A DNA stretch of 64,000 nucleotides, taken from the NCBI GenBank assembly GCA_963920765.1, contig OY987249.1:14384817-14448816 (forward strand). The letters are read 5' to 3'. Below the pieces are notes generated by a model. The model worked only from the letters and a program-made list of their open reading frames with translations, ran no database searches and had not been told where the DNA came from. Positions 2,861-57,527 of this stretch are shown here, piece after piece. This DNA comes from Ulota crispa. Taxonomy: Eukaryota > Streptophyta > Bryopsida > Orthotrichales > Orthotrichaceae. Position numbers and translations under genes: made by a program. Positions within the stretch are counted from its first letter, which is position 1. Each line of letters starts with the position of its first letter.

Positions 2861-3429
2861 AACGGGGCGAGGTGGCAAATAACGTTTTACTAGTTGCAAC
2901 CAATCAATATTCCTTGCAAGCTTCCTTGCATGTGATTTTTGGTAGCAAGAAATTTGCTAGCAAAGGTTTAAACATGTTCTAAACTCTTATTGTGGCAACG
3001 CTTTTTGATTGTGTTGGTCATTGTTTTCTGTGCAATAGCATTTTGAGGCTTTAAAATTTGACTTAAAAAAAAGTACTACCTTCAATAATTTGCGTATGTG
3101 TGTATTCACATCTAATCTTGCTACTCACAAAATTTGAAATAAATTAAAGGCTTATAGAATTTTGTAAAAATCATCAAATAGCAACTACTTACCAAAAAAT
3201 GAGATTTTGTCATCTCATGTTGTTTGATCAAATATTATTATCTCCTATCTTCTACTATTAATTGTTCCCAAAATTTGCAAATCATTTTCTAAGTAGGTGT
3301 TCCACCATTTTGAATGGTCATTTTATGTGCTTCATTTCATTAAGTGAGATACAATACATCAAAGTGGTAGGTCTCCCAAAACTTTAATCTTGGTGAAAAT
3401 GGCATGGGCGCTTACAAGTGAAGGGTTAA
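2861..3429 (+). mobile_element. TTAA-bounded element, copy A (left end lost)
   Basis: This stretch aligns along its length with the element at 56748-57527, sharing for example 'ccttgcaagcttccttg' and 'aaaaatcatcaaatagca'. Its right end is GGGTTAA at 3423-3429. The left TTAA end could not be found, so it is probably truncated. No transposase is encoded. Confidence 0.7.
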
Positions 3430-3659
3430 TCCTTAAACAACTGAAAGGCCCTTTGCACCCAGTACAGTACGGGGTATTTTTCTTGTTTTTGAAATATATC
3501 CACACATCTACTACATTTGAGACAAACAAAGAAGTTGGAGAATAGATCAATGCGGTTCTAGTGAGCTACTTGAGATCCCAAATAAAAATTTCTTATTGGT
3601 AGCAAATGACTATTATACATCAACATATACACTATGTCCTATGGTTGTTTAAGTGTTAA
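3426..3659 (+). mobile_element. TTAA-bounded ~235-bp MITE, copy 1
   Basis: It begins TTAATCCTTAAACAAC and ends GGTTGTTTAAGTGTTAA, giving imperfect terminal inverted repeats of about 20 bp that start with the target TTAA. The inside matches the copies at 7879, 34351 and 45612 (the last reversed), with shared words such as 'gatcaatgcggttctagtga'. The left TTAA is shared with the element ending at 3429 and the right TTAA with the one starting at 3656. No ORF is seen. Confidence 0.85.
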
Positions 3660-4383
3660 CCCCTAAACGTTGAAGAGGACAAAAAACATCTTTTGGGTCT
3701 AAAAAAAAGCTTCTATGATTTAGAAAAAAGTTGTTTTTCATCTGGTTTTTTTTCAAAAGTGATCGTAAATACATAATTCATTGTAGAAGACAAATTAAAA
3801 ACTATCTCTTGAGATGCATTCATTTTTTTTGTAACCCAATATGTGATAAGATTCAAAAACATTGTGTTAGCTCCCAAGCTGCTCTTCTTGCAATTTTCAT
3901 GAGAGCACCATGCACTGTTGACTTTTCCAAATTTTTGAAGCAATAGTGCTTGTGTCCATGTGCAAAACACTATAGACTTCTACAAGCAAGGCAAGCCACG
4001 GTGATCCATCCGTCCTTAAAGGATAAAGAGTCGAGGAGGACAAAAAACATCCTTCGGCTCTAAAAAGAGATTCTATGATTCAAAAAGAAGTTGTTTTTCA
4101 TCTAATCTTTTTTCAGAAGTGACCATAAACACATGGTCCATTGTGGAAGATAAAAAATTACGTCTTGAGATGCATTCATTTTTTTTGTAACCTAAATTGT
4201 AATAAGATTTAGTAACATGGTGTTAGCTCCCAAACTGCCCTTCATGCAATTTTCATGAGGGCACCATGCTTTGTTGACTTTTCCAACTTTTTGAAGCAAT
4301 ACTACTGGTGCCCATGTGTAAAACATTGTAGACTGCTAAAGGCAGGGCAAGCCATGGTGATCCATCCGTCCTCTCAGGGTTAA
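3656..4383 (+). mobile_element. Tandem pair of ~360-bp TTAA-bounded elements
   Basis: It starts TTAACCCCTAAACG and ends CAGGGTTAA. It consists of two direct copies, about 3676-4030 and 4037-4380, sharing 'gaggacaaaaaacatc' and 'tgagatgcattcattttttt'. The joint near 4014 keeps a TTAA ('gtccttaaagga'), so the pair may be two elements fused through one TTAA. It encodes nothing. Confidence 0.7.
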
Positions 4384-5226
4384 GGATTAATGGTTAAGCA
4401 ACTATTTTTGGCAATTTTTATTATATGTGTACTACAAGGCATTGACAATTTTTGGGAGTTTTTGTAGGTGAGAGCTTAAAGCATCATCAATGTATACACG
4501 CAAAAAGAGACGGGCCTGCATTTTGTTTGGTAGGGGCCATTTTAGCAAAAAGTTTAGGGTTTTCTAGGGCTCCAATGTAGCCACCAGAATGGAAATGCCA
4601 GACCTAACTCCATTAAAACCACCTCCTGGAGCAACATATTGTCTCATTTTCTTGTGCCCTAGCTAGTTTTCCCAATGTGCATATTTTTTGACAAAGTGAC
4701 ACGTTGCTTGTGATAACTAACAATAGCTTGTAATTTCCCAACAACAACTTGCAAGTACTTGTGTTCTTCTACTACCGTTCTTGAATTTGCAGCGGAAGTT
4801 GTGTCAACATTGAGAGGATCCGGCCGATGAAAGAAACTACATACATAAGGAGCAGGGAACAACGCAAGACCGGCTACTTCCGAGTTCCATTCGCAATGTA
4901 CACATTGATGATGCTCTTATACAGGGAATGTTTCTCCCCAGGTATAGATGCTTCCCGGATATAGACTCCGAAGGGTGTGGAGTCCACACGTTCAACGCAG
5001 CAAGTGTGGAGCTAGTTGAGGTTGGAGAAGGAGAAGGGGCAATTCTCTAGGGCAACGGGAGAGATTTTGCACAAGTTTTGCAGGAAGGATCGTGGCAATG
5101 ACGCTCCGCAAGTGAAGCAACACTTCACCAGGATAAAGATGGAAGGCAAAAAGTATCAGGTACTTCTAAGCTTACTACCATTTGTACATTCTCTGAATTA
5201 GTCACCAGCCATAACTTTGTAATACA
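4384..5226. other. Unassigned stretch with an exon-like GC-richer part
   Basis: From about 4790 to 5158 the DNA is GC-richer than its surroundings. An open frame (5016-5158) reads into 'cag|gtactt', which looks like a splice donor. The peptide, with KFCRKDRGNDAPQVKQHF, is not recognised. It could be a captured or relic exon. No upstream coding sequence joins it. Confidence 0.25.
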
Positions 5227-5433
5227 TAAGGTAGGAGGTTCTAATGCAGATCAGCTTTAGGAAGGGCTGACCTTTTAGATCAAATATCTATTATTATCAT
5301 AGATGATTTAGGCAGGTTTTGCAAGTTAACCTAATTTGCTAAGCTCACTTAACTCATCAATGATAGTAATAGATATTTGATCTAAAATGTCAGCTCTTCC
5401 TAGAGCTAATCCAAATTAGAGCCTCCCACCTTA
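5227..5433. mobile_element. Palindromic MITE, TAAGGTAGGAGG family, copy 1
   Basis: It begins TAAGGTAGGAGGTTCTAA and ends TTAGAGCCTCCCACCTTA, and the arms pair along most of its length ('gatcaaatatctattatta' against 'tagtaatagatatttgatc'). The trinucleotide ACA flanks both sides (5224-5226 and 5434-5436), a plausible target duplication. Relatives lie at 12102, 38985 and 55650. Confidence 0.8.
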
Positions 5434-5496
5434 ACACCAAACAAAAGAGCGGCTACTTTAAACGTCATAGGTTTTGGAGAAAAATGCCAATAAGGT

Positions 5497-5672
5497 AAGA
5501 GCACCCATAAACATCAAACTAAGGGTTTTGAACATGATGACTATTAATAAACAACTAGTAATTTATAGGATCCTATTCGGAACAAAAAAAAAAGTTTGCA
5601 TTTTCAAATGTATTATTTGAATATTTGAATATTGTGAGAATAAGTTATGAATTTTTAAAGAGCAAATTGCCA
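5497..5672 (+). repeat. Dispersed repeat, pairs inverted with 9406-9555
   Basis: Words such as 'aagggttttgaacatgatga' and 'caaatgtattattt' occur here and, reverse-complemented, in 9406-9555. The class is unknown. Confidence 0.6.
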
Positions 5673-6916
5673 TTGCATCCATAACTACTTGAAGAATTCA
5701 TGTTCACATATTGTACAGTATACGTAGAAATCCCTTGCTACCTCTGAATCAAAGTTGAGTGGAAATTTTTCACATGCAACTTCAAAATGTCATGGTAGGT
5801 GAGATATTAACTCAAATCGAGATTTGACAAGTGCATTAAGTAGGTGTATCTGTCTGCTTTTAGTAAAATCTTGATATTATCAGAAGAAATGTAGAGAGCT
5901 TTACATATAGAGCTTTTTTGTGGTACGTATAGTAAAAGTCTTGGTACAATAAGGGGTCTCCCACATGTCAAATTTCAGGCCCCTATTGCCATGGCACTTA
6001 TGCGTGATGGACAAGTAGATTAAGATTTTTGTTAGTTCAAGCAACCTCTTGTATAATTGACTTCAGATTTCTTTAAACAATCCAGTCTTACGTTGCACAT
6101 GGAATTAGTGTATTCATGTTTTGTTAGAGCGTTGCCCATGGTACTAGTTTGTTCTTCAGAGCCCCTCTTGAGAGCCATCCACCCCATGCTTGTAGTGAAA
6201 TTTTGGTGAATTCTCACGGCAGATGCTACTAGTGGCATTCTTGGGCCCCATTCTTCAATTCTTGTTCATTCCTCAGCTCCCCCTTTTACTTGACATTTTT
6301 CTAGTAGTTTAGTTTTTGATTCAATGTCACTAATTCAATCTTGGAAGCCCCTCTCCTCCAAGGCGCAGCAAAAAAAGTAGCCCAAATACATTTTTGTGAG
6401 TTATTGAAATCCTTGAGGTGCAGCAAAGAATCAATTTGCCAAACGTGCACATGTTTTTCCAACTTGAGGGTGGTCTTCACTTCTTACGTGAATGGAGTGA
6501 TTTGACATGTGCCTGGATTGATTTGACAACCAAAGGCGGGACCAGTTTCAAAACATCATTGAAGAAATTGATCAAGGTACTTGAAAATTTTCTACTAGTT
6601 GTGAGTTTAAAGATTTGATAGTTATATATCAGAGGTTTACAATTCTCCAAAACATGGATCATTGAAGTATTTACTAATGGATTGTTTTTAGTAGTACATT
6701 TGTATTATAAATCAATAATTGAAGACCCAAATTTGAAGTTTGAAATTGAGATTTAGTGGATTGGACATTTTTAATTCTTGCATTGACATCATTTTGACAA
6801 CTTTGGCTATTTCTTGCAAAGACTAGAGAGTTTGGCTAGAAAGAATCTAGAAAATAATAATTTATGTAAGCAGTGCAATCTTTGCAATTTTACCAAACTC
6901 ATTCTAAATTCTTTTC
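5673..6916. other. Intergenic, nothing recognised
   Basis: Short open frames on both strands (for example 6032-6238 and 6418-6618) show no family signature. Confidence 0.4.
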
Positions 6917-7202
6917 TTGTTCAATTTTATTAGGTTTTTGAAAGTTGCAACCATAAAGAATTGCCAACTAAGCATTGAAGAAAAGACAACTATAATGGGC
7001 ATGCACAAAACAAGTATGAAAATGGTGCATATTATAGAGGCACTACATATGCCACCTAGTACCGTTTATAGTGTTGTGCAGAGATGTAAACTTCGTGGAA
7101 CAGCAGTATCGCCAAAACCTAGTGGAAGACCTTCTAAGCTAACAACACAAGATAAGAGACAATTACAACGGCTTACAACACAAGATCGCCGATTGACACT
7201 TT
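6917..7202 (+). pseudogene. Tc1/mariner-type transposase, N-terminal part up to assembly gap
   Basis: This fragment gives the DNA-binding half of a Tc1-like transposase, which binds the element's terminal repeats in the nucleus. The frame reads SIEEKTTIMGMHKTS, then an HTH segment with MPPSTVYSVVQRCK, then a linker with the GRP motif (PSGRPSKLTTQDKRQL). This is the order helix-turn-helix, 'SGRPRKL', second paired-like domain. The catalytic DDE part would lie in or past the N run at 7203-7402 and is not seen after it. The start codon is uncertain; upstream residues look unrelated. Whether the copy is intact cannot be told because of the gap. Tc1-type elements are unusual in land plants, so contamination of this contig join is an alternative. 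Confidence 0.65.
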
Positions 7203-7402
7203 NNNNNNNNNNNNNNNNNNNNNNNNNNNNNNNNNNNNNNNNNNNNNNNNNNNNNNNNNNNNNNNNNNNNNNNNNNNNNNNNNNNNNNNNNNNNNNNNNN
7301 NNNNNNNNNNNNNNNNNNNNNNNNNNNNNNNNNNNNNNNNNNNNNNNNNNNNNNNNNNNNNNNNNNNNNNNNNNNNNNNNNNNNNNNNNNNNNNNNNNNN
7401 NN
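7203..7402. other. Assembly gap (200 N)
   Basis: Exactly 200 undetermined bases. Round-number gaps usually have unknown true size, so the sequences on either side need not be close neighbours. Confidence 1.
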
Positions 7403-7415
7403 CTCTTTAATATCT

Positions 7416-7520
7416 CAAGAAACTTATCGTAGCAAGACAAGAAACTTACCGTAGCAGGACAAGAAACTTACTGTAGCAAGATAGTTTGAGTGCTGGACAA
7501 GGAAACTTACCGTAGCATGA
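7416..7520. repeat. Minisatellite, 22-bp unit, three clear copies plus one displaced
   Basis: The unit 'caagaaacttaccgtagcag' begins at 7416, 7438, 7460 and, after a break, 7498. The downstream part (7521-7760) has no gene and may belong to the same unknown repeat. Confidence 0.8.
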
Positions 7521-7878
7521 TAGGGAAATTTAGCATAACAGAACATGGAAACTTAGGGTTCAAACGCCTAGCATATAACCTAGCTTAGGTAACAATGTTC
7601 CTAAGCTATCTCTTGTTAATACAAAGTTGTCAAGGTTCCTTGTTGTATTTGATTCATTCCACTCCTCTCATGTTTCTTGCTAGTCGCATCTGTATTTTTT
7701 TGCTACAGTACTGCAAGGATTGTTGACTGCTTGAGAGAGGGAGAGAATTAACTAGTCAAGTTTATTTAGGAACTGAAAGCCGTTACAAGACTAGGCTGTG
7801 GTATTAAAGAGACTAGGCTGTGATGCTACAGAAATCATTGAGATTTGAGTAGTATCCTTAGTAGCAACACCATTCTCT

Positions 7879-8119
7879 TTAATCCCTAAAGGACGAGGCA
7901 ACCCTTTGCGACCAATACAATATGATATATTTTTCTTGTATTTGGAGTGCATCCACACCTTTATTACATTTGAGATCAACAAAGAAGTTAGAATATAGAT
8001 CAATGATGTTCTAGTGAGGTAGTCAAGATCCCAAATTTAAAAAAATGTTGGTAGCAAATGCTAGTTATACAGTAGCGTACATAGTATGAATAATAGTAGC
8101 CCCGACCTTTAAGGGTTAA
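7879..8119 (+). mobile_element. TTAA-bounded ~240-bp MITE, copy 2 (diverged)
   Basis: It starts TTAATCCCTAAAGG and ends CTTTAAGGGTTAA. The inside aligns with the copies at 3426, 34351 and 45612 (for example 'atatttttcttgtatttgga'). It is the most diverged of the four, so probably the oldest. Confidence 0.8.
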
Positions 8120-11342: not shown

Positions 11343-11591
11343 TTAACCTTTGAGCACCCAGCCCAAATTTGTGCAGTGTTAGACCTCATTGCAAACAATT
11401 TGGCATCACAAGTTCAAAAACAACATTTGGAAGAGTTAGTCATTGATATTGCATGAGGCTTAGGGTCCACATATGTATGAAAAATTTGGTAAGTTTTTGT
11501 TGCATGAATCAAAATATTATAACGGTCAAATACAACAAACCGTCAAATATGGAGAGGCCACATTTTGGCCAGTGGAGCGCTCATGGGTTAA
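11343..11591. mobile_element. TTAA-bounded 249-bp element
   Basis: It starts TTAACCTTTGAGCACCC and ends GAGCGCTCATGGGTTAA, whose reverse complement is TTAACCCATGAGCGCTC. The ends resemble the TTAACCC termini elsewhere in the window, though the inside is different. No ORF. Confidence 0.6.
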
Positions 11592-20665: not shown

Positions 20666-21404
20666 AGCGATACCACATTGTAACTAAGTTTGATGTTTTG
20701 CTTTCATTATCTATATGGAATTGCAAGCGTGTGCACATGATGTTGAGTGGATACAAAGGACAATGTGTTATAATATGTGATTGCTAAATAAGTAGTAGAC
20801 CCACTGTGAGTTTCTAATATACATGAAGCTTTTTGATCTGGTATATACGATTGATATGTACTTTGAAGTAATTGTGTGTATTAATTATGAAGTAAGTGAT
20901 GACTAGGTGACAACTAGGTGGCAACTCTTGGATTTGATGTGAAGCGTGATTGAACTCAGATGCTAGAAAGATACGACTCTAGTAGGACTCAATGGTAAGT
21001 AAGATATGTTTGTAGCAAATAGGATGTTATTATTCTGTAACTTAGTAACTAGTACAATTGCACGACTCTTATTTTACTCAGTGTTCACTATATTACTACT
21101 ATGCCATGAATTTGTGACTACAGAATCACTTCTGCAATGACTACTTGTCCAATGAATTATGACTTTGTTATTACTCAGTGACCAATAAAATGTGACTCTA
21201 GTACAACTCAGTGGCCATTGAGGTAGTACTATAGCATGATCCATTGATCATCACTATATGACTTTGCAGTATCTAATTAACAACTAAACTATGATAGCAC
21301 TATGACTATGTCATGACTTTGTAGACACTAGATTATCACTATGTCATGATTGAACAAGAACTACTATACGACTGTATGATGATTAGGTAACCACTAAGCT
21401 ACAA

Positions 21405-21640
21405 CTCAACTATGACTCAACTACAACTCAACTACGAATCAACCACGACTCAACTATGACTCAACCACAACTCAACTATGACTCAACCACAACTCAACTA
21501 TGACTCAACCACGACTCAACCACGACTCAACTATGACTCAACCACGACTCAACCACGACTCAACCACAACTCAACCACGACTCAACCACGACTCAACCAC
21601 GACTCAATGGCCTCTCAATTACGACTCAACTACAACTCAA
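21405..21640. repeat. 11-bp tandem repeat (actcaaccacg)
   Basis: About twenty copies of 'actcaaccacg' or 'actcaactatg' without spacers. It lies near the right end of the CACTA element and may be an amplified subterminal motif. Confidence 0.95.
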
Positions 21641-22162
21641 TAACAACTACAGAATTACACTAATACAACTCAGAGTACTTCCATAAATGACTTACACAAC
21701 TAAAATTTGACTAACCCACAACTCAACTATAACTATCATTAGCATGATCATCTGAACATTATGTAATTTAGAGACAAAATAATTGTTGATAAATGTCCAT
21801 AAAGTTGCTCTCAGCAAATAGGAACAGAACAATTGGAAGAAAGTGGGCCCTACCACAAGTTGTATTGTAGTTGTAACCGTACCCATGAATAGTCGTATGT
21901 GAGCAGAGAATCTAGTATTTATCCGGGCACTTACTTAATGACCCACCGGAAAAAAAAAATATGACAGAGAGAAGTTAATACTGTGTCAGTTGTGTCAAAC
22001 GGATGAAAACTATTGTATCGCTAGAATGTCCTAAATGACAGGTTTTCTAGAACTAGGACATGACTTCACAGTTGTATAGTTGTAAAAGAGTCATTTGTAT
22101 CCTAAACGACTCAAAAATGAGTTGTTTATAGAATCTGATTTTACACATTTTCTTCTAGTGCC

Positions 22163-23816: not shown

Positions 23817-24471
23817 TTAACCCTTCAACGCCTAAGGGGCATTTATTTTGCCCCTCTGAATTTTGTTGAGAGATACCAAAAGTTTTTGAAGATTTTTTGT
23901 GTGGTTATTATTATATCTAAATTGTTGTTGAAGTCTAGTTTCAGCATCAAGAGTCTGATCTTGAAAATGAATTAAAGTGATTTGTCTACTCAAGATTTTG
24001 TGCAAGGGTGTCCATTGCAAATCTTCACTTTCTAGTGTTGAAGGCTCTTGCAAATGAGCCTCAAGTACACTAGAACTTGGAAAAAAAAATTGCATTAAAA
24101 ATTCATTTAAAAAAAATTGTAGAATAGATTTTGAGAAGCCAAAAATTGATTGGAGTTATGCAAGTTGTACTTTACATACTCATATTTTTTTGGTACCCTC
24201 AATTTTAGGTTTGAGATGCAAAAAGAGGATTGAAAGACTTCAAATCACTTTCACAATTTTAACACCATCATGATCAAACATTATAATCTTTCAATCCATA
24301 AGTGATATAGTTGTGATTTCTTTTTGTATGCAATCTATAACATGTCTACTTTGAATTTTTATAGTTACATTTCAAAAAAAATCGATAAAATTGATCAAAA
24401 TGCTGGCACTTTGTTCACTTTTGAGCAAAATTCCGAGATACTCCAAAATTCTAGGGGCAGTGAGGGGTTAA
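23817..24471. mobile_element. TTAA-bounded 655-bp element
   Basis: It begins TTAACCCTTCAACGCC and ends GGGCAGTGAGGGGTTAA. The ends are imperfect inverted repeats. Its right TTAA is also the left TTAA of the next element. No transposase ORF. Confidence 0.75.
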
Positions 24472-25398
24472 CCCCTAAATGCCCAAGGCACCCAATTTGG
24501 GTGTCCAAAAAACTTTAAGAAACTTTGTAACCCTGTTAAAGGTACAGATTTTATCATTTTCAAGTTCATTTTTTTGGAAAAGTTGCGCGCTCAAGTTAGC
24601 TCTAGCGTTCAAATTCAACTTCCTCCATATCTTATTCCAATTGATTTTGGTGGAAGGTTAACTACAAGCATACATTTTGTGACACAATAGTGTTGTGAAT
24701 AGTGTCATGAATAGTGTTGTGAATAGTGTCATAGAGCCTATGAGAAGTTGCCACATTGAAAAGGTGGGCATCAAGTTGAGCAAAAGGTGAAGATTTCCCT
24801 TGGGCACTCCCTTAGGCAATAAGGGCCGTTTTACTGAAATTTTGACATTTAACAAAATCTAAAAGTGCTTTTGGACTAATTTTGCTTGGAATGTCTTTTT
24901 TATAAAAATTAGAATCCTTTCACCATTGAAAATTCTTTCATTCATAATGATTTTTGGTTAATAATTGGAGCTAAAAATTTCTTTGCATTAGACAGTTGCA
25001 TTTTGGCATTTGCATTGCAGGCTCATTTGTGAAATTGTGGTCATGGATTTGGAAGGGGGGCCATTGATTTTGAAGTAACAACAATAAACACTAAAGCAAT
25101 CTAAGTGGTTGTTTTTCAATTTTGTATCTAGAATTTGCCAATTTGCATTAGAAATTTTGGGTAGCTTTAGAAAAAGCAAAATATTCTATTTTCATCATCA
25201 TTCAATTGCAAATATCTTAAAATCCGCACGGCCATTTTAGATTCTTTTTGGACTGCGCCGTCTAGAAGTCTTGAAGTTCAAAATTCAACAATTACAATTT
25301 TATTTTGATGTTTAATAATGATCTTACAAGGACAAATCAAAAACTTCCAAACTGCCTTCCCAAAACAAGAAAAACACCCTTGGGCATTTAGGGGTTAA
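24468..25398. mobile_element. TTAA-bounded 931-bp element with perfect ends
   Basis: Its 21-bp ends are perfect inverted repeats, starting TTAACCCCTAAATGCCCA and closing TGGGCATTTAGGGGTTAA. The outer TTAA is the target duplication and CCC the first triplet, as in piggyBac-type elements. It shares the TTAA at 24468-24471 with its left neighbour, making the palindrome GGGGTTAACCCC. It has no coding capacity. Confidence 0.85.
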
Positions 25399-26890
25399 GC
25401 TTAAAACTTTGTAGAAACAAATGTCCTTCTCTCTACACTCAAACCTCTCTAATCTCACCGCAGAAACCCTAACTTTTTCTCTAGGACGTAGCTTAAAAGC
25501 TTGTGCCGGACATTCTAGAACATTCGCTTCGAGAAGGTTGGAATAAAGAGATTTGAGTGTTATTCTTGTTTGAATCCATCCGCTTATGCTCGGTATGCAG
25601 TAAAACTTTGTAGAAACAAATGTCCCTCTCTTTACACTCAAACCTCTGTAAACTCACCACAGAAACCCTAACTTTTCTTCTGGGACGTAGTTTGAAAGCT
25701 TGTGCCTGAAATTCTAGACCATCAGCTTCGAGAAGGTTGGAATAAAGAGATTTGAGTGTTGCTCTTGTGAATGCAGAGAATTGTGACCTAACTTACTTTC
25801 CAAATCGTGCTCACTGGAGCTCTGGAGCTCATTGAATTCCATGCAACATTCGAGCTACGACGCAATCGTTTGAAATCCATCCGCTTTCTCTCGGTAAGTT
25901 TATGCAGTAAAATTTTGTAGAAACAAATGTCCTTCTCTCTATTCTCAAACTTCTCTAATCTCACCTCAGAAACCCTAACTCTTCTTCTACGACGTAGTTT
26001 GAAAGCTTGTGCCGAACATTGTAGAATATCAGCTTCGAGAAGGTTGGAATAAAGAGGTTTGAGTGTTGTTCTTGTTTAAATCCATCCGCTTTCTCTCGGT
26101 ATGCAGTAAAACTTTGTAAAAATAAATGTCCTTCTCAAACCTCTCTAATCTCACCACAGAAACCCTAACTTTTCCCTTCGACGTAGTTTGAAAGCATGTG
26201 CCGGACATTGTAAACATTCGGTTCGAGAAGGTTGGAATAAAGAGATTTGAGTGTTGTTCTTGTTTGAATCCATCCGCTTTCTCTCGGTATGCAGTAACAC
26301 TTCTGTAGAAATAAATGTCCTTCTCTCTACACTCAATCCTCTCTAATCTCACTACAGAAACCCTAACTCTTCCTCTACGACGTAGTTTGAAAGGTTGTGC
26401 TGGACATTGTAGATCATCAGCTTCGAGAAGTTTGGAATAAAGAGGATTGAGTGTTGTTCTTGTGAATGCAGAGAATTGTGACCTAACTTATTTTCTAAAT
26501 CGAGCTACTCGGCAAGGTTTAATTTGTTTCAATGCGCACTCTGTATCCCTTTTGTTGCGTAGTTCGGTTTGTCAGGGTTTGGTTATGAAGAGCGCCATAG
26601 CTACACACAAGCTTCGGAATCCCATTCATTCCTTCCACCACCGTACACTCAAACCTCTCTAATCTCTCCACAGAAACCCTTACTCTTCCTCTACTACGTA
26701 GTTTGAAAGCTTGTGCCGGACATTCTAGACCATCAGCTTCGAGAAAGTTGGAATAAAGCGATTCTTGTGAATGCAGAGCATGTTGTTCCGAATTGCGACT
26801 TAACCTACTTTCCAGATCGAGCTACTCGGCAAGGTTTACTCTCAATGCGCACTCTGTATCCCTTTTGTTGCGTAGTTCGGTTTGTCAGGA
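25399..26890 (+). promoter_or_regulatory. Tandem array of ~195/310-bp promoter units with telo-boxes, upstream of the AP endonuclease gene
   Basis: Six units each carry 'cactcaaacctctctaatct', a telo-box AAACCCTAA, 'gacgtagtttgaaagc', and 'ggttggaataaagagatttg'. Telo-boxes lie at 25464, 25663, 25970, 26160, 26358 and (variant AAACCCTTA) 26674. Spacing is 199, 307, 190, 198 and 316 bases, so short and long units are mixed. Long units add an exon-like part ('gtgaatgcagagaattgtga'). The last two long units also hold a copy of the gene's start codon region (26585 and 26898). Telo-boxes are known in promoters of plant growth and DNA-metabolism genes; a role here is inferred. Confidence 0.8.
26585..26645 (+). 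pseudogene. Duplicated, truncated start of AP endonuclease exon 1
   Basis: From ATG it reads MKSAIATHKLRNPIHSF, close to the real exon 1 start [17 protein letters not shown] at 26898. It then runs into the next promoter unit. The distance of 313 bases equals one long unit. It could act as a decoy start or a short upstream ORF if transcription begins upstream. Confidence 0.75.
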
Positions 26891-26897
26891 TTTGGTT

Positions 26898-29800
26898 ATG
26901 AAGAGTGCCATAGCCACGTTCAAGCTTCGGATTACTACTCATTTCTTCGACCGTCTCCCAGCCATTGTCTCTCTCCAACCCCGACGCAACTCCAACCCTC
27001 ACGCTCTTGCTCCTTTTGGTTTACGCGGCTTCACAACGTCGGGTTTGGTGGATCTTTCAGACTGTCGCTCTCCATGGCATTGCAATACTTCGTGGAGCAG
27101 CTTCAGGAAAGCTGGACTTGTTCATAATGCTGTGAATATTCCTGACATATCTCGCAGGTGCGTCGTTTTTCTCATGACCTAATTTTGATTTTAGGGTTTG
27201 TGGCTTTGTTACGTGCAATGTAGAGGATAACCTTCCATGCAAGTGAAGTAAAGTCATATGGTTTGAAGAAAAAGTGCTTGTTGTTGTGCAGGCAGTTGCG
27301 GTGCTATTGTTTTGGGATTCCGAACTTGGATTCCGGCAATATGAGTGGCAGGCAACTCAGAGTTCGAAAGGAAAAAAGAACAACAACAATAACAACAACA
27401 ACCACAACTGCAGAGACGCGAAATGTAATCAGAAGCACTTCCGAGGTAGCTTTTTCTCTATTGTTTCGCAAAATGCACATGATTTATAAAGGGAATTTAT
27501 ATGTGCACACCGGGGGGTTGATATTTGCACACCTCCCTGGGAGGTAAATTATAGATTTCTACCATTAAAAATCTGAATTTGAGAGTTTTGAATTCAGATT
27601 TGGAATTAGAGACCATGGTTTACTCTAGAACCATAAAAAAAGGTTGCAATTGAACAACACTCAATGAAAAAGCTTATCTTTTTTTACAAACTTAAGTTAA
27701 AGTAACACTTTCCCCCCTAGTTAAGCTTTTTCACTGGGTGTTGTTCAATTGCAACTTTTTTTATGGTGCTAGAGTAAACCATGGTCTCTAAATCCAAATT
27801 TGAATTCAAAATTCTCAAATTCAGCTTTTTGATGGTATTATTCTATAATTTACCTCCCAGGGGGTGTGCAAATATCAACCCTTTGGTGTGCACATATCAA
27901 TTCCCTTTTTAAATGGAATTTTATAGCATTGTGACAACCAAGAGTGTAGAATTGACATTACAGAAGTACCATGGGGAAGAAGATGATGTAGAGTTTTCAC
28001 TTCACACTTTGTTAAACTCCTTATTATCGCATTTGTATGATGCAACTACATAGCTTGTTATGAGTTTTTGATTCTCAACTCTAGGGGAGAAGCTTCAGAT
28101 GGTGGAAACATGATGTGGTTGCAGGCCTCCCCGGGAGAAGTGGAGAAACTCAGTAAGGAAAACTTCGGGGTTGATAGCTGGCAGTTTCAATTGCTGGAAC
28201 GTCATGAGGCTAATAATCTGAACTCTTATACCGTTGCTGAGCTTCGGCAGCTGTTGAGGTTCGACACATATATTTTCCTGGATTGCCTGGTTTGAGGGAT
28301 TTTTACAACTGGAATTTGTGGAAAGAAAAGGCTTTTGTCAGAATTGTAACCCTTGTCGTTTGAATCTTTTCAGTTCCTTAAATGCTTCATTAGGGTCCTT
28401 TCATGCGCTAATTACACTTTGGTGAAGTAAACTCTCTGTGGATTGTATTTAATTTCTACGTGAATGTGAGTGCGTGTTTCTAAAGAGAAGTAGCAGTTTT
28501 TTTGCATCAAGCTCTTGGGAAGGGTTTTGTGTGTATGTACGCTTGATGCTCATACTGTGGTTCACAGGGAAATGCAGAAACAACCAAAAGGCCAAAAGTC
28601 AGATTTACTGAAGGCTGTGAAGAGTTGGCTCTATGATCATGGATGTCAACCACCATCTGGTACGTTTAATATCTTTGATTTTATATAAAAATGACGTCCC
28701 TACCTCAAATAACATGCACGTAGTTTCAAGTTTTGTGCTAAACCCCCTTCCGAGGTGTTCTAGAGATCCTACCCTTGGTTATATCTTGCCAATTGCAACG
28801 TTATTTAAGTCAGATTTTAGCTTAAACTTTGCCAGTTCTAAATTTCTAAAACAGCACGTCTTGGGTGGGTCGTAAGGTAGGGACACTCAAAATTACTGCT
28901 GATCCAAAGGCACCTTTTGTAAAGTCGTAGATAGTAGACAAATGTTGATTAAGAGGATGTACACCACCTCAACATCTTTTCAAGTGTTGGTTTTAATATA
29001 TCTACCAATCAAGCTTTATTCCTCAATAACTTTTGCATTAAATATCCAAATGGTGCGTTGTTTGGTGCGTTGAAACCCTCTTTTCATTTTTTAACAAAAA
29101 CATCTAAAAACTTGCCCAGAATAATTACAGGAACTATGCTCTCGAGGACTGTCATTGACTTGTTTCTATGACTGGTTGTAGCCTTGGAAGAAGAACCAAA
29201 TAAGGGACTTGAAGAAAAATCTTTGGACCAGGGAACACCCAAGGAGGTCACCATTGTATCAAAAACCAGAGAGGCGGTGTCTGAACGGACTGAAACTCAA
29301 AATGGCATAAAAAAGACATCCACTCCAAAAAACAGAAAGAGGCGAAAGGATGAGGAAAAGGAGGAAAACAGTATTGAAAACTCTCAAACTGAGAAACCTG
29401 AGAAGAAATCTAAATCCTCCAAAAAAGGTGCAGAAGAGTCTGTGTTGAAGGTAGAAACAGGCATAGACGGTACAGAGCCATGGACTGTTTTGGTGCACAA
29501 AAAGCCTCAACCGGAGTGGGTGGCATATAATCCTAAAACTATGAGGCCAGAACCACTTGCTAAGGAGGAGAAAGTGGTGAAGCTTTTGTCTTGGAATGTA
29601 AATGGCTTACGGGCACTTTTGAAGGAGAAAGGAGTTCAACATGAGCAGGGCTCTTTGATTGCTCGATTGGCTGCGAGAGAGGACTTTGATGTGCTTTGTC
29701 TACAAGAGACAAAATTACAGGTAAATTCGGGTCCCTGTTTTTTGTTGTTTTTCGGCACTCCCTCTGCCTCGCAATAAGTGGCTCATTAGAGCCTCATGTT

Positions 29801-34197: not shown

Positions 34198-34970
34198 TTA
34201 ACCCCTAAGCGCCCAATCGACCATTTTTTGGTTGTTGCCCGTTTTTTTAGGTTGCCTGAGATAAAAAAAAACTTTTTTCAAATTTTTTCTTTTTTTGTAA
34301 TAGAAAATCAAGTATACTTTCCAACTTAACTTGAATCATGTCAATCCAAGTTAACCCTTAAGCAACCAAAAGGCCCTTTGTGGCCAGTACAATACGGGAT
34401 ATTTTTCTTGTATTTGGAATGGATCCACACCTCTACTACATTTGAGACCAACAAAGAAGTTGGATAATAGATCAATGCGGTTCTAGTGAGCTATTGGAGA
34501 TCCCAAATTAAAATTTCTTATCAATAGCAAATGACAATTATACATCAGCGTATATACAATCCCCTATGGTTGTTTAAGGGTTAAACTCCACCAAGGAGAA
34601 TTTTTCAAAAACAAACACTTCAACATTTGCTAGTGTTGTAAAATTTACTATTTTGAGAAACTAATGATCTCTCCTTTCAAAAGATTGGATTTTTGAAGTT
34701 TAGGATATAATTTATATTTTTAACCAATCATACCAAATTTTGAAATCTGCGAGTAAAATTTGTACTTTTAGTGAATGTTAAATGGTAAATGCTTTTACAT
34801 TCATTACATAAAAATCTAAAACTTTTTTTTAGTGTTTGACCATATGGATAATTACTAAACATTATGATTCTTATTTTCTCTTTTGAAACAAACTTCATCA
34901 AAGTCACAAAAGTATTATTTTATAACACATCTATGTTTTGCCCTTACCCCCTTGAGCCTATAGGGGTTAA
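34198..34970. mobile_element. TTAA-bounded ~770-bp element, split by a nested MITE
   Basis: It starts TTAACCCCTAAGCGCCCA and ends GAGCCTATAGGGGTTAA. A complete TTAA-bounded MITE (34351-34584) sits inside it, so the host element is about 540 bases. It shares its right TTAA with the next element. No transposase. Confidence 0.75.
34351..34584 (+). mobile_element. TTAA-bounded ~235-bp MITE, copy 3 (nested)
   Basis: It starts TTAACCCTTAAGCAACC and ends GGTTGTTTAAGGGTTAA, a near-perfect inverted repeat. It closely matches the copies at 3426 and 45612. It lies within the element at 34198-34970. Confidence 0.9.
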
Positions 34971-35970
34971 TCCCTCATTGCCTAAGGGGACAATTTCTGT
35001 CCCTGGCAATCCATCACTTCAATTTGAAGTGTTGCAACTTTTGCATTTAAGGTCCAAATTCAATAAGATTTGTTGGTAGAGTTGCACACACTAGTCTAGT
35101 TTCTATGATAGAATTTTCAGATCCATCTAAGACATATTCAGTTTATGAAATCCATTCAAAGTTCACAGGGTCAATTGGAGTTCACCACTCTTCATTTTGA
35201 TGGCTGCAAATTTGGGAGCTTGTATCTTTTTCATGAAATGTTTTTTGTCAATAAAATTTGTTGGGGTTTGTCCCCTTAAAGTCTAGTAATTGTGGTAAAA
35301 AATTCATATCAAACCAAGTTTTCTTGAATGTTTGGGAACAACTCAAAGTTCAAAATCCACACATTTTTGCATTATAGTGAACTTTGGTGGCTTATAACTT
35401 CTTCATAAAAACTTTGTTTTCAATACTTGTTATTGGAAAAGTTGCACATACTCATCTTGTTATAGTGGTTAAAATTTCATGTCAATCCAAGAAGTTATGA
35501 ATGAGTGAGAAGCATTTTAGTTCAGGGAGGTTTAGCCATAGATGTGATTTTTAGGTACTTTTTCACTATTTTTTGACATTTCAAAACAATTTTGCAAGCA
35601 AAATGAGTATATTGATTGATATTTTCTTTCACCAATGTGTTTGTATACTGGTTTGAATCACTTTCTATTTTATTATCAAAATAGGTTTAGAAATCAAATT
35701 TCACCTCCAAATGTGTTTTTAAGAAAATTTCAGCATTTTTTTCAGCACTAAAACATTATAATCTTCCAATCTATGTGGTCAAATGACCCCAAATTTGATC
35801 CACATCATTCCAAATTTGATCCACATCATTCCAAATTTGATCCACATCATTCCAAATTTGATCCACATCATTTGATGAGATTTTCATATTCCATCGGAGT
35901 TCAAACATACAACGCTTGAAAGGCAAGGAGATCTTTAGCCCTCTTTGGACCTTAGGCGATGAGGGGTTAA
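34967..35970. mobile_element. TTAA-bounded 1004-bp element
   Basis: It starts TTAATCCCTCATTGCCTAAG and ends CTTAGGCGATGAGGGGTTAA, inverted repeats with two differences. Near its right end is a four-copy 21-bp repeat (35789-35872). No coding capacity. Confidence 0.85.
35789..35872. repeat. 21-bp tandem repeat, four copies
   Basis: Four identical units 'ccaaatttgatccacatcat' plus 't' in a row, inside the TTAA element at 34967-35970. Identical copies suggest recent expansion. Confidence 0.95.
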
Positions 35971-37615: not shown

Positions 37616-38960
37616 TTAACCCCTCAAGGACCAAGCCTTTTTTCTGTGAAAATCACTAAAAACTGCCACTTCTAAGAGGTTTAGTAAAAAGGACTTTATG
37701 TTTTGTTTTTGGGAAATTTAACCATAGGATCTTGTCCTATAAGGTAGCAGCATTCATAAGCGTTGCGTCCCTATGCCCGTCACCTGACAGTGGTAGGGCT
37801 AATCAATAAAAAAACAAATGGTTGTAGGTGATTGAGTGATGGTTATGGGTGATTGAGTGATGGTTATGGGTGATGAAGTGATGGTTGTAGGTGACTAGCA
37901 TGAGGTACCCATCTCACTATTTAAGAACCAATAATCCTTGTGTTTAGCATCTCTTACACATGGTTCCTACAATTTCAATGATTTTGGACTTTGAAAAATC
38001 TTTGTGAACAAATGCTTGCAGTTGGAACCTTGAAATTGATGCCAATATTTTTGGTTTCCATTTCCTAACTTACAACATTTTTTTCAAAGTTAGTCAATTG
38101 TTTTTCCTACTACAAAACCCTTATTTCCATGCTTATAGGTGCGCCTACCTTACTAGAAGAGGTACTTGTGGGCAAAAAATCAGCTCATTTTGAATGGCCT
38201 GGAGTAAGATATTTACATCTAAAGTGAAAAGAAATTTTTATTTCCATGTTGCCCAAAATTTTTAGAAGCCTTTGACCACTATTATAACAAAAAGAATTGC
38301 TCTACCCAAAGTTTTGCTTTTTTTTTGCATGTAGGAGATCAAGTTAGGTATGTGTGGGAGAATTTCAAATCAATTGGAACTATACAACACATGGGAATAA
38401 ATAGTAAGTATAAAGAGGTAGACAATGAGTCAAAATACTAAATTGTTAAGAATTTAATTACTGAAATGAAAAAAGCAAATCCCAACGGTTATAATGATGT
38501 GATAAATGATCTACTTCATTTGGTTTTTTTTTTTTTTTTCAAAATAATGAAAATGGAGTAAAATAAAGGACTTCAAATTTTATTTTAGAGTGGAGAATCC
38601 ATAACTCCCCGCAAACAAAAACTCCTCATAACTTTCATGTCATTGATTGAAATTGAATGATTCAAAGCCCCTTACATATAAAAAAATAAAAAGAACCATT
38701 TCAAATTTTAAATTTTAAAAAATAACAAATTTAAAGAAATTTTTGGGCTGCCTGAATAGGCAGTCTTCTCCAAATTTTCATAAATTCATGCATAACTTCT
38801 TCACAAATGTTGAAATGAAGAAAGAATTAGATGCCCACATAGATCTTTGAATTTCTCACCCTCAATAAAAATTTTAGAAAATCACACAAAGTAGTTTAGC
38901 CATAAGTACATGCCCAAAGTCTAGTCTGTCTCGCAAATGGACAAGTCCTCTAGGGGTTAA
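37616..38960 (+). mobile_element. TTAA-bounded 1345-bp element, long copy
   Basis: It starts TTAACCCCTCAAGGACCAAG and ends GACAAGTCCTCTAGGGGTTAA. The part 38150-38950 is nearly identical, in reverse, to 45850-46650. It carries about 430 bases (37730-38160) that the other copy lacks, including a ~21-bp repeat 'gtgatggttatgggtgattg' (37817-37893). No transposase. Confidence 0.85.
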
Positions 38961-42257: not shown

Positions 42258-43107
42258 TACTAGTTTATGTACCCGTTGTATCAACGGAGGCAATAAAAAT
42301 ATCCATGCAATAAACAAATTGTGCAATAGCAATCTTATCCTCGTGCCCTCCTATCCTTCTGCCCCCCTATCTTTGTGCCTCCCTATCCATGTGCCCTCTA
42401 TCTCCATGCCCTCTTATCTTTGTGCCCCCTAACTCCGTGCCCCTATATCCGTGCCCCCTATATCCATGCCCTCTATTTCCGTGCCCCCTATCCTTGTGCT
42501 CTCTTATTCTCGTGCCCCCCTATCTTTATGCCCTCTTATTCTTGTGCCCCCCTATTTTTGTGTCCTATCCATGTGCCCCTTATCTCCATGCCCCCTATCT
42601 TTATGCCCCTATCTCCATGCCCCTATCCCCATGCCCCCTATCCCAATGCCCCCCAAGAATACAATTTTTTGAGCCACTCATTTTGATTGGGTGAGAGAGT
42701 GTTGTGGTGCAACCTCTAGTGACATGCTGTTGACTTCTAGTGAAACGGCTCAATCTAATTGGTTAAGAGAAAGTGTTGTGGTGTCACTTCCAGTGATACG
42801 TTATACTTTATTGTTAACTACCACATGAATCATGGAGCTACTTGCTTTTATTGACTAAAGAAAATGTAAATGGTGCAACTTGTTAAACTACTGTACTGCT
42901 ACATGCATGGAATGCAACTCATAGTTGCACTCAAACTCTCTCTTGGGATTCTTTTATAATAGAAAATGTAAAAGGTACAACTTGTTAAATAAAAATAAAA
43001 TAAAAGGTGCAACTTATATGCATAGAATGCAACTCATAGTTGCACTCAAACTCTTTACTTTTCATCCAAAATGGAGTCTTTGGATTCTTTTATAGATATA
43101 GACTAGA
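42258..43107 (+). repeat. Dispersed repeat with embedded minisatellite, copy 1
   Basis: It starts after 'actag' with 'tttatgtacccgttgtatca', then holds a ~15-bp minisatellite of 'cccctatccccgtgc' type (42340-42660), then 'gagccactcattttgattgg', and ends '...gatatagactag'. Near the end 'tgcaactcatagttgca' forms a small hairpin, seen twice. A second start ('tacgtactcgttgtacca') follows immediately at 43108. A hairpin near a CTAG end recalls Helitrons, but the expected TC start is not clear. Confidence 0.55.
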
Positions 43108-44439: not shown

Positions 44440-45150
44440 TTGGAGAGTGACCTCCCCGAGAATGGCAATCTTATCCCCATGCCTCCTATTTCTATGCATC
44501 CTATCCATGTGCCCCCCTATCCCTGTGCCCCCTATCCTCGTGCCCCCCTATCCTTGTGCCCCCTATCCTCGTGCCCCCCTATCCCCATGCCTCCTATCCT
44601 CGTGCCCCCCTATCCTCATGCCTTGCTATCCCCGTGCCCCCCTCTTCTTGTGACCCCCTATCTCTATGCCCTCCTATTCCCATGCCCCCTATTCCTATGC
44701 CCCTCTATCCTCGTACCCTCCTATCCTTGTGCCTCCCTATCCCCATGCCCCCAAGAATATAACATTTTGAGCCACTCATTTTGATTGGGTGAGAGAGTGT
44801 TGTGGTGCAACCTCTAGTGACATGTTGACTTGCAATGAAACGGCTCAATCTAATTGGTTGAGAGAAAGTGTTGTGGTGTCACTTCCAGTGACCTATTATA
44901 CTTTATTGTTAACTACCACATGAATCATGGAGCTACTTGCTTTTATTAGCTAAAGAAAATGTAAAAGGTGCAACTTGTTAAATAAAAAATGTAAAAGGTG
45001 CAACAATAGAAAACGTAAAAGGTGCAACTTGTTAAATAAAGAAAATGTAAAAGGCACAACTTACATGCATGGAATGCAACTCATAGTTGCACTCAAAATC
45101 TTTACTTTTCATCCAAAATGGGGCCTTGGGATTCTTTTATAGATATAGAT
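44440..45150 (+). repeat. Dispersed repeat with embedded minisatellite, copy 2
   Basis: It parallels 42258-43107: the same 'ccccctatccccgtg' minisatellite (44470-44755), then 'gagccactcattttgattgg', 'gtgttgtggtgtcacttcca', the 'tgcaactcatagttgca' hairpin, and 'tatagatatagat'. Its left end is less clear. A reversed, partial relative lies at 55015-55230. Confidence 0.6.
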
Positions 45151-45156
45151 TACTTA

Positions 45157-45611: not shown

Positions 45612-45845
45612 TTAACCCTTAAACACCTATAGGGCATAGTATATATGTTGACATATAATTGTCATTTGCTACCAATAAGAAATTTTAGTTTGGGATCTCA
45701 AGTAGCTCACTAGAACCACATTGATGTATTCTCCAACTTCTTTGTTGATCTCAAATGTAATAGAGGTGTGGATCCATTCCAAATACATGAAAAATATGCC
45801 GTATTATATTGGCCGCAAAGGGCCTTCCCGTTGTTCAAAGGTTAA
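45612..45845 (-). mobile_element. TTAA-bounded ~235-bp MITE, copy 4 (reversed)
   Basis: It starts TTAACCCTTAAACACC and ends GTTGTTCAAAGGTTAA. Its inside is the reverse complement of the copies at 3426 and 34351. Its right TTAA is shared with the next element. Confidence 0.9.
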
Positions 45846-46774
45846 CTCGTAAAGTACCATTGTCCCTTCTCTAAATAGACTAGACTTTGGGCATGTACCT
45901 ATGGCTAAACTACTTTGTGTGATTTCCTAAGACTTTTATTGAAAGTGGGAAATTCAAAGATCTATGTGGGCATCTAATTTTTTCTTCATTCCGACATTTG
46001 ATGAAAAAGTTATGCATGAATTTATGAAAATTTGGAGAAGACTGCCTATTCAAGCAGCCCAAAAATTTCTTTAAATTTGTTATTTTTTAAAATTTAAAAT
46101 TTGAAATGGTTCTTTTTATTTTTTTATATGTAAGGGGCTTTGAATCATTCAATTTCAATCAATGACATGAAAGTTATGAGGAGTTTTTGTTTGCGGGGAG
46201 TTATGGATTCTCCACTCTAAAATAAAATTTGAAGTCCTTTATTTTACTCCATTTTCATTATTTTGAAAAAAAAAAAAAAACCAAATGAAGTAGATCATTT
46301 ATCACATCATTATAACCGTTGGGATTTGCTTTTTTCATTTCAGTAATTAAATTCTTAACAATTTAGTATTTTGACTCATTGTCTACCTCTTTATACTTAC
46401 TATTTATTCCCATGTGTTGTATAGTTCCAATTGATTTGAAATTCTCCCACACATACCTAACTTGATCTCCTACATGCAAAAAAAAAGCAAAACTTTGGGT
46501 AGAGCAATTCTTTTTGTTATAATAGTGGTCAAAGGCTTCTAAAAATTTTGGGCAACATGGGAATTTTTTTTTTCACTTTACATGTAAATATCTCACTTTT
46601 TTCCATCTGGAATGAGCTGATTTTTTGCCCACAAGTACCTCTTCTAGTTTGGGGCAAGCTCCTACAATTGGATTTTCCAAAAACAAAACATAAAATCCTT
46701 TTTTACGAAACCTCCTAGAAGTAACAATTTTTGTGATTTTCAAAGAAAAAAGGGCTTGGTCCTTTAGGAGTTAA
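45842..46774 (-). mobile_element. TTAA-bounded 933-bp element, short copy (reversed)
   Basis: It is the reverse complement of most of 37616-38960 and nearly identical over about 800 bases, including the A/T homopolymer next to 'ccaaatgaagtagatca'. It ends CCTTTAGGAGTTAA. The two copies form a long inverted pair about 7 kb apart. Confidence 0.9.
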
Positions 46775-54720: not shown

Positions 54721-55649
54721 TTATAAACACAAAATAATGAAGAAATCTATACAACAACTTGCAAATTTGATTATTCACTTAGTCTCTTCTATATAACATA
54801 AATTCATTTTGATGCCTAATTAGGCAATGAAGAATTGGAGCAAAATAATACACAAATGGCTTATAAATCAAACATTATTATTATTCTATATACATTATTT
54901 TGTTATATGTATTGTTATAAATAATAAAATACAACTTTTTTTATACATATAAGAATACAACCAAGAATAGAATACAACCTTTTAGATATATATAAAAGAA
55001 TATATCCTTTTGAGTTGCTCAATTTGATTGGTTTGAGAGAGAGTGTCATAGTGCGACTTCCAGTGACATGTTCATCTTTTAATAGGGAAGAGAGGAATAC
55101 AAACAATCACTCATGGTTTAATTTTTTAAATTGGCTACATTTTGTAATAAGATTGCTAGTCCAAAATTTGCTTATTGCAAGGACATTCATGTTGCCTCCA
55201 TTGGTACAACGGGTACCTACACTTATATATATATTTCTATATGAACTTTTTTTTCATTTTGTAACCTATAGGTGGTGCTAACCTATTTGGAATTAATTGT
55301 GCAAATTAGAGACCGTTTTGTCCGTCACTTCCAATCAAATTTCCTTATTTCATGGGATGGCATTGTTCATGAGAAAGCTAACATATAGTGATCAACTATA
55401 CATGGTACATGGCCATTATACTAGTCTAGTCCATTATGTTTAATAACAATGCCTATGCATGGATTTGAAGGAGTGATATGTTGGAGTGTCAGCATGCCTA
55501 AATCCTAAATGCTCAAGGCCTTTCTGAGCTTCTCTAAAATTTCATGAAACTAAACTAATCATGATTTTCATAAACTTCATAAAAAATTTTAATTGTTAAA
55601 CTAATGACACTTGGTACAAATATAGAGTTTTTGCAACCATTGGAGGAGG

Positions 55650-55790
55650 TAAGGTAGGAGGCTCTAAAAGCAACCATGTTCTTAACACGTTCTCTATTTA
55701 GAAATGAGTAATATGTTCCTTCAGATATCTATTATTGTCATTGATGAGTTTGATAGGCTTAAATGATTAGTTTACGGACCTTCTACTTTA
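55650..55790. mobile_element. MITE, TAAGGTAGGAGG family, copy 3 (141 bp)
   Basis: It starts TAAGGTAGGAGGCTC and ends GGACCTTCTACTTTA, an imperfect inverted repeat. The inside shares 'atctattattgtcattgatg' with the copy at 5227. Confidence 0.6.
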
Positions 55791-56747
55791 ATCCTCCAAA
55801 TTCCCTACATTTGCTTGGTTTTCTCTTTTGGGTAAACAAAAGTGTACTTGTGATTCCTATGCTTTTTAACTAGGATTGTTGTATTTCACCTTGCAATGAA
55901 ATATTAGTTTCATTTGTGTCACAAATTGTAATGTACACACATTTATACATATAGTACATATGCATGTGTAATGAGCATGGAGATCCAAAAACAATGAAAA
56001 GTTAGCAAAATGAAATGTTGAAAAAACCGTTTGAAATTTGAATCTTGGATTAAAACCAACCAGCTACACTTATGAAAATAATCTAATTATAGTATAAGTA
56101 TGTAAGCAATACCCAAAGTATACACTAAAAACCGATTGGAAATGAAAAATGTAGGATTTTTGATTGTAGAAGCTCAATGTTTCTCTAGACACTATATGTA
56201 CGTGAGTTTTTTTTCTGTGTTTAGTTTTTTTCTTTTTCCAAATGAATTGTCAACTACATTCCACATCTTACCTATGGACGTTCCACTCAATATTTGGGGT
56301 GAAACTTGAGCTTCATCAACTGAAATTAGGCAATTTATATTTTCAACATGATTGTACAAGCATGCTTTAAATAGTGCCTACATTCATTTTAATTAGACAT
56401 ACTTCTGAATGCCTACCCAATATTTATTTAGTAGTTTCAAATTTCAGTCAATTATTTTGCCATTTCAATCAATGGACTTTGTATTGATAATTGCTTCTCT
56501 CCACTCATTGGTCCCGCCTCAACATTGAATCCCACCTTTATCAATTTTATAAAGGACAAAGTTACCTTTATTGGTTTATAAAGGACAAAATTGAAGACAG
56601 AAAGAAAACCTTGCATATTTTATGCAAAAAATTGGTGTGATTTGGGCTTTTAGTTGACTTCTACACAATTGCTTAACTCAAATCTACGTTGAAATTAGCA
56701 CCAAAATGTCCATGGCATGTAAGGTAATTGTCCCCATACCTGAGCGT
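55791..56747. other. Intergenic, nothing recognised
   Basis: No gene or repeat end is supported on either strand. Confidence 0.45.
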
Positions 56748-57527
56748 TTAACCCGTGAGCGCCCCAGCGCCCCATATATTGCCTCCCACAATTTCAAAAC
56801 CTTGTTTTGAGGGATTGGATCTAACTTTTTGGTCTTGCTATAAAGTATAATTATGAAGGCATTCAAGTTGTACATGCCAATGGAATAATGGCAAAGAAAG
56901 CCAAATGTTGTACAAGTATTGCAAGAGATTTGATTGGGTGAAACACCATACCAGAAAGGGTGGCAAGCATATAGGGCGTGGTGGCAAGCATCAATTTACA
57001 AGCTGCAATTGATCAATATCCCTTGCAAGCTTCCTTGTGTAAACTTTGTGGTAGCGGGAAAGTTGTTGGCAAGGGTTCAAGCATGTTTTAGACCCTTATT
57101 ATGGCAACCCTCACTAACTCTGCTAGTCATCGTTTTTTGCGCAATAGCAATTTGAAGCCCTAAAACTTGACACAAAAAGAAGTGCAATCTTCAGTAATTT
57201 ATAGGTGTGTGCATTCACATCTAATCTTGCTCCTCACAAAATTTGAGATGAATCTAGGGGTTATTGAATTTTGTAAAAATCATCAAATAGCAGCTACCTA
57301 CCAAAAAATGAGATTTTGTCATCACATGTTTGATCAAATATTAAAATCTCCAATCTCCTGTGGTGAATTGTTCCCAAAATTTGCAAGTCATTTTCTAAAT
57401 AGGCGTTCCACTATTTTCAATGGTCAATTTTTGTGGATCATCTGATTGACCAAGATACAATGCATCAAAGTGGTTGGTCTCCAAAAACCCTGATTTTTAT
57501 GAAACGGCCTAGGCACTCAAGGGTTAA
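56748..57527 (+). mobile_element. TTAA-bounded 780-bp element, full copy of the 2861 type
   Basis: It starts TTAACCCGTGAGCGCCC and ends AGGCACTCAAGGGTTAA. The inside matches 2861-3429 in the same orientation. No transposase. Confidence 0.85.

Follow-up and report, generated by a model that had tools for sequence, protein, structure and literature searches.

Transposons of the piggyBac superfamily are familiar chiefly from animals, fungi and protists. The hallmarks of the superfamily are a TTAA target, ends of 12-19 bp and the terminal motif CC[C/T]T (PMC2872659). In corals, piggyBac-type miniature inverted-repeat transposable elements (MITEs), termed CMITEs, occur in tandem arrays and have been linked to piggyBac-like elements (PMC2872659). 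PiggyBac has also been listed among the superfamilies present in all groups studied, including land plants (PMC4438587), among the superfamilies of plants (PMC10794571) and among the MITE superfamilies of flowering plants (PMC10004981). In a fern, 1,230 PiggyBac pieces amounted to 122,417 bp, or 0.00% of the genome (PMC6890710), and a single 75-bp piece was recorded in feather grass (PMC8319324). Here, 14 short elements with TTAA ends, all from one 64,000-nt stretch of genomic DNA (the window), are described. They are almost certainly non-autonomous members, that is, MITEs and internal-deletion derivatives, of several piggyBac-superfamily families in a plant, probably a moss. A preliminary description of the window had already proposed piggyBac-like non-autonomous transposons, and elements with the same ends that encode the transposase, together with empty sites that hold a single TTAA, now bear this out.

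A genome search for a transposase of a TTAA-targeting superfamily had been set beforehand as a test. In the assembly that contains the window (274.8 Mb, 157 contigs), at least 120 matches to PF13843 (DDE_Tnp_1_7) were obtained, each over the curated cut-off and the best with an E-value of 1.3e-73. The number is a lower bound, since 116 of 528 candidates were scored, and in some cases several matches belong to one gene; none of the matches listed lies inside the window. For a stop-free frame at locus L046, the match to piggyBac (Protein Data Bank (PDB) entry 6x67) has an E-value of 4.1e-20 and that to piggyBat (9c0f) one of 5.8e-17. The source of the piggyBac structures 6x67 and 6x68 is presumably Trichoplusia ni, and the host of piggyBat presumably a bat. 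Positions 268 and 346 of 6x67, which we take to be catalytic, correspond to an aspartate in all eight aligned frames, the positions being counted along the printed L046-6x67 alignment. Among 22 domains, namely those of L045 and L046 together with the 20 that scored best, 14 kept all three aspartates, the first being present in 20, the second in 15 and the third in 19. The third column was set by the GVD..DQ motif, and the 6x67 match stops before it. In a tree, the 22 domains fall, as judged by eye, into about eleven groups. The closest pair among the 20 best-scoring domains shares 89.9% DNA identity, alignments longer than 600 bp were obtained for nine pairs only, and the eight aligned frames are 30-57% identical to the first. 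At another locus (L044, 3941-5629), two stop-free stretches with piggyBac domains were seen, around which no TTAA-CCC end pair was found; this is possibly a domesticated gene.

The transposase genes lie in elements that have the same ends as the short ones, some PF13843 matches being situated within elements of 5-6.6 kb with TTAA-CCC ends. For 20 of the 120 transposase places (15 among the best-scoring and 5 stop-free), 9-kb stretches were searched for TTAA-[CT][CT]C inverted ends differing at no more than 3 of 14 positions. Such ends bracket the transposase at seven loci (L029, L030, L032, L033, L034, L045 and L048). When nine control tetramers were put through the same test, eight gave none of 20 and AAAA gave two. 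The L032 element, of 5,746 bp, matches both ends of the window element 24468-25398: bases 1-115 are 78% identical to one L032 end and bases 379-931 are 83% identical to the other (554 bp), with end scores of 34 and 36, and bases 116-378 have no match to L032. Similarly, bases 1-205 (66%), 266-295 (93%) and 355-929 (77%) are collinear in L042, where the first two blocks stand before the transposase and the third after it. Because of these end matches and of the collinear blocks around the transposase, 24468-25398 seems to be a transposase element with an internal deletion. piggyBac transposases have a cysteine-rich domain at the C terminus; a 155-aa frame of L032 contains a cysteine cluster, seen by eye, which may represent it but has no Pfam match at E 0.01. 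Three other window elements have their nearest ends among the transposase elements. The ends of 11343-11591 score 20.5 to the 3' end and 18 to the 5' end of L030 (the L034 5' end is close behind at 17.5), and those of 34967-35970 score 22 and 19 to the L029 5' end (runners-up 16 and 15). For 56748-57527, the left end scores 25 to the L030 5' end (next best 14.5), and the right end is without a clear counterpart (13.5).

It is very improbable that the short elements were produced by Sola-type elements, whose targets are also 4 bp long, and that the piggyBac transposases are unrelated neighbours. A 4-bp duplication alone is compatible with Sola, and the transposase searches used no Sola model; however, the transposase elements on which these TTAA-CCC ends recur encode PF13843, and one of them has both ends in common with a window element.

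A TTAA duplication flanks the element 34351-34584, which is nested in another, 34198-34970. A genome-wide search with the joined flanks of 34351-34584 gave 1,471 candidates, and the 40 best-scored all lack the insert, a query of this kind favouring uninterrupted copies. All ten empty copies that were fetched carry TTAA once where the flanks meet, against twice at the filled site, and L053 has one A fewer after it; the expectation that empty sites keep one TTAA thus held for this host repeat. A second empty site is provided by an insertion in L037 (112-1050), whose counterpart in L029 (8092-8230) has one TTAA and is 72% identical over 139 bp. In the mechanism proposed, a piggyBac (DDE_Tnp_1_7) transposase would be made by the longer elements, of about 5-6.6 kb, and would recognize the CCC-first ends of the short elements in trans. 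It would then excise a short element and join it into a TTAA, so that TTAA stands on both sides. We infer seamless excision and mobilization in trans from the known mechanism of piggyBac.

Several observations weigh against a piggyBac origin. The left end at L048 is borrowed from an adjoining short element, so that six bracketed loci remain, and at 13 of the 20 transposase loci no pair of ends comes within 3 mismatches. If 5 are allowed, TTAA brackets 10 of 20, compared with 5 for AAAA, 3 for AATT and 1 each for TATA and TTTT. The shuffled null of the end scores is lenient, TTAACCC being common to all ends, and unrelated ends score about 10-17.5; because those of the same type reach about 17.5, the links of 11343-11591, 34967-35970 and the left end of 56748-57527 to L030 or L029 are weaker than that of 24468-25398 to L032. 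Among the element ends compared, which come from the 20 of 120 transposase places taken with flanks, none is a clear counterpart of the 234-bp family (scores 11-14.5). The site of the element pair 23817-25398 is unclean: none of four neighbouring tandem-repeat copies has TTAA there, the copies reading GCAGTAAAAC or nearly so, and joining the flanks leaves about 6 bases too many. The transposases, diverse as they are, are mostly decayed: stop-free stretches occur in only 10 of the 120 PF13843 matches. At least one aspartate is lost in 8 of the 22 domains, and the third reads N even in the stop-free L046 frame. PF13843 was unmatched in 14 control genomes, a weak control with little bearing on plants because the plant family PF00504 was unmatched in them too. 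Finally, a single TTAA in an empty site would also fit a TA duplication with a preference for TTAA.

Tc1/mariner-like elements with a TA duplication, ends of the form A-CCC...GGG-T and a chance TTAA preference are formally compatible with the empty sites; in the window frame 6917-7429, the helix-turn-helix of Sleeping Beauty is matched weakly, at an E-value of 8.9e-5 that falls short of the curated cut-off. Such an origin is nevertheless about as improbable as one from Sola. The sequence CCCCTAAATGCCCA occurs 3,868 times in the genome, and TTAA-CCCCTAAATGCCCA accounts for 3,235 of these exact ends, that is, 83.6% with exactly TTAA. The choice between a TTAA and a TA duplication is decided by the transposase, because the one encoded in the same-ended elements is that of piggyBac. 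Least probable of all is an origin without transposition, as ancient repeats or duplications whose ends were conserved, for although the copies are about 8-24% diverged and the transposases mostly decayed, this is refuted at the nested site by a clean insertion into a repeat whose 40 best-scored copies lack the insert.

The 14 elements to which the piggyBac interpretation applies, with both ends of each printed in the analysis and none assigned to a strand, are as follows.

2861-3429, no strand: 5'-truncated piggyBac-type non-autonomous element, with a right TTAA end only.
3426-3659, no strand: 234-bp MITE family, copy 1, sharing a TTAA with its neighbour on either side.
3656-4383, no strand: TTAA-CCC-ended element, part of its interior duplicated in tandem at an offset of about 356 bp.
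7879-8119, no strand: relative of the 234-bp MITE family, by sequence match to the other three copies.
11343-11591, no strand: 249-bp element, both ends nearest those of transposase element L030.
23817-24471, no strand: 655-bp element, sharing a TTAA with the next element.
24468-25398, no strand: 931-bp apparent internal-deletion-type derivative of a transposase element, its ends matching at 14 of 14 bp.
34198-34970, no strand: 773-bp element hosting a nested 234-bp insertion.
34351-34584, no strand: 234-bp MITE nested in 34198-34970, with TTAA duplicated.
34967-35970, no strand: 1,004-bp element, ends nearest L029, sharing a TTAA with 34198-34970.
37616-38960, no strand: 1,345-bp element, of which 414 bp (about 37738-38151) are an unrelated insert.
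45612-45845, no strand: 234-bp MITE family copy in inverted orientation, sharing a TTAA with the next element.
45842-46774, no strand: 933-bp relative of 37616-38960, with TTAACTC ends.
56748-57527, no strand: 780-bp element, left end nearest the L030 5' end.

The union of these elements is 8,656 bp, or 13.5% of the window, in line with the earlier estimate of over a tenth. Alignment likewise confirmed that there are several unrelated interiors, the internal families being the 234-bp family with its four related copies, the pair 2861/56748 and the pair 37616/45842. Within the first family, 3426-3659 and 45612-45845 are each 86-87% identical to the other and to 34351-34584, and 7879-8119 is 79-82% identical to the other three over 169-185 bp. 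The element 2861-3429 begins with AACGGGG, without TTAA, and aligns from base 227 of 56748-57527 (80% over 536 bp); by this alignment it is a 5'-truncated relative of the latter, minus the first 226 bp. The elements 37616-38960 and 45842-46774 are 94.6% identical over 812 bp, the 414-bp insert being missing from 45842-46774. Their middles (38240-38803 and 46002-46564, about 560 bp) are 99% identical and inverted, whereas the outer parts are only 72-89% identical, and this difference suggests gene conversion between the two. The 414-bp insert (37738-38151) has AGGTAG/CTACCT ends and is repeated at 83-90% in L046, L036 and L002. The tandem duplication in 3656-4383 was seen as window repeats D12 and D20, and both halves align to L044 (7549-7923). 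Relatives of 23817-24471 at 77-80% are present in L029, L042 and L002. The pair 23817-25398 is adjoined by a tandem array of diverged repeats at 25402-26952.

The ends of the elements are less uniform than was first thought. The preliminary description gave TTAA at all element ends; this is the case at 27 of the 28 listed, and 13 of the 14 elements have it on both sides, the left end of 2861-3429 being the exception. CCC or TCC was said to come first throughout, and was counted by eye at 22 of the 27 TTAA ends; the five others are 11343 (CCT), 45842 (CTC), 3659 (CAC), 45845 (CCT) and 46774 (CTC). Some window ends read CCCT or CCTT, as in the strict motif CC[C/T]T, and many others read CCCCT. 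Inverted ends of 15-21 bp, also described earlier, are a property of the best copies only. The test used here counted mismatches in 14 bp, up to 5, among ends filtered for [CT][CT]C. No mismatch was found in 24468-25398, one in 34351-34584 and two in 34967-35970 and 45842-46774. There were four in 7879-8119, 34198-34970, 37616-38960 and 56748-57527 and five in 23817-24471, and the ends of 3656-4383 were not paired at 5 or fewer. Three elements (3426-3659, 11343-11591 and 45612-45845) fall outside this test, as one end of each fails the filter. Over the whole window, CCC follows TTAA 22 times against 5.8 expected, and nine other tetramers 2-11 times against 3.7-11.3 expected; TCC is not enriched after TTAA in the window (10 against 8.8). 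Counts of tetramer-flanked inverted pairs in the window do not single out TTAA (13, against 26 for AATT and 31 for TTTT), and ten Markov controls gave 2-8 TTAA-flanked pairs. An apparent element pairing the ends at 3656 and 8119 was rejected as an artefact in which the wrong ends were joined. An unpaired end, TTAACCTTTAGAGGACCACC, lies at 62629 on the minus strand and perhaps belongs to a further truncated element.

Ends of this type are present in high copy number in the genome. TTAACCCCTAAATGCCCA, an end of 18 bases, was counted 3,235 times and never when read backwards. A degenerate 16-base end pattern, which covers 7 of the 27 window ends, occurs 33,787 times compared with 27 for the reversed control, and its density in the window (7 in 64 kb) is near the genome mean. 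The shorter pattern TTAACCCYTNA, which by eye fits 14 of the 27 window ends, gives 65,422 ends compared with 3,454 for the control. Scaled by hand from such end counts, the genome would contain, very roughly, 60,000 elements. One element, of 79 bp (L003, 1501-1579), consists of little beyond its two 18-bp ends, and its end spacing was seen again at C1:531562 and C1:3362792.

At five junctions in the window (3426, 3656, 24468, 34967 and 45842), neighbouring elements share one TTAA. Back-to-back junctions of this kind would be expected if new copies could enter the TTAA flanking an older element. Genome-wide, the palindromic back-to-back junction TNARGGGTTAACCCYTNA was found 1,967 times with a strict pattern, compared with 0 for the control. 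With about 1.6 million genomic TTAA sites, hand-scaled from 376 in the window, our own arithmetic predicts about 600 junctions under uniform random insertion, so that the number observed is a threefold excess. Clustering alone may be the cause; for example, 13 forward ends lie inside 13 kb near C1:560-573 kb. A wider proposal is that at least eight deep piggyBac lineages radiated in a land plant, probably a moss, with MITEs making up about a tenth of the genome and insertion favoured at element-flanking TTAA, which would build back-to-back stacks that spare genes; taken as a whole, this is rather doubtful.

Among the other features of the window, a frame at 29184-29774 has an Exo_endo_phos match just under the cut-off (E 2.8e-5) and is possibly the endonuclease of a long interspersed nuclear element. 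Minisatellites are located at 21316-21705, 2408-2605, 42316-42565 and 44469-44750, their units measuring 11, 22 and about 15-16 bp. Rfam and tRNA scans of the window gave no matches.

That the host is a plant, as had been presumed, is supported by 39 matches to the chlorophyll a/b-binding family (PF00504) in the genome, which mark the host as photosynthetic, a green plant. One LHCB frame (L049) is closest to 8htu_U and 7xqp_a among single-domain PDB chains. The next-closest chain, 8c29_G, is presumably from spruce. Two long 9vfj chains outscore these in total through summed repeated domains, their best single domains scoring 276 and 96 bits compared with 433. The entry 7XQP is described as coming from the moss Physcomitrium patens (PMC12965295), and 8HTU as PpPSI-L (PMC10005731). 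A moss host is therefore likely from the LHCB comparison, one protein being thin evidence.

A plant genome with more than 100 piggyBac transposase matches of many lineages and with TTAA-flanked ends in the tens of thousands would allow the fate of this superfamily under plant silencing to be studied, and plant-native transposases are candidates for seamless excision tools. The elements also suggest that plant repeat annotation may leave such sequences unclassified. No piggyBac expansion in a moss was recognized by title or start of abstract in an incomplete body of open-access literature, which does not imply absence in print; in a paper on the moss Niphotrichum, the term occurs only as 'piggybacking'.

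Compared with piggyBac itself (6x67/6x68), the transposases found here share the DDE_Tnp_1_7 domain, the aspartates aligned with 268 and 346 and the TTAA target, but they differ in their plant host, in the distance of the match (E 4.1e-20 to 6x67) and in their many divergent lineages. Similarly, residues 44-434 of the L046 frame align with piggyBat (9c0f), including the region of the GVD..DQ motif, whereas the host is different and the match has an E-value of 5.8e-17. The short elements resemble the coral CMITEs in their TTAA duplications, C-rich ends, tandem arrays and link to piggyBac (PMC2872659). In contrast, the CMITEs come from an animal and are reported to have a highly conserved interior common to their families, while several unrelated interiors are present here; many ends here also read CCCCT and not the terminal CC[C/T]T of that report (PMC2872659). 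The fern and the feather grass contain traces of PiggyBac (PMC6890710; PMC8319324), compared with tens of thousands of ends here; in the plant papers cited, the superfamily figures only in the form of such traces or as a label for MITEs. Thus, piggyBac elements in plants are already known, and it is their abundance and the number of transposase lineages that stand out in this genome.

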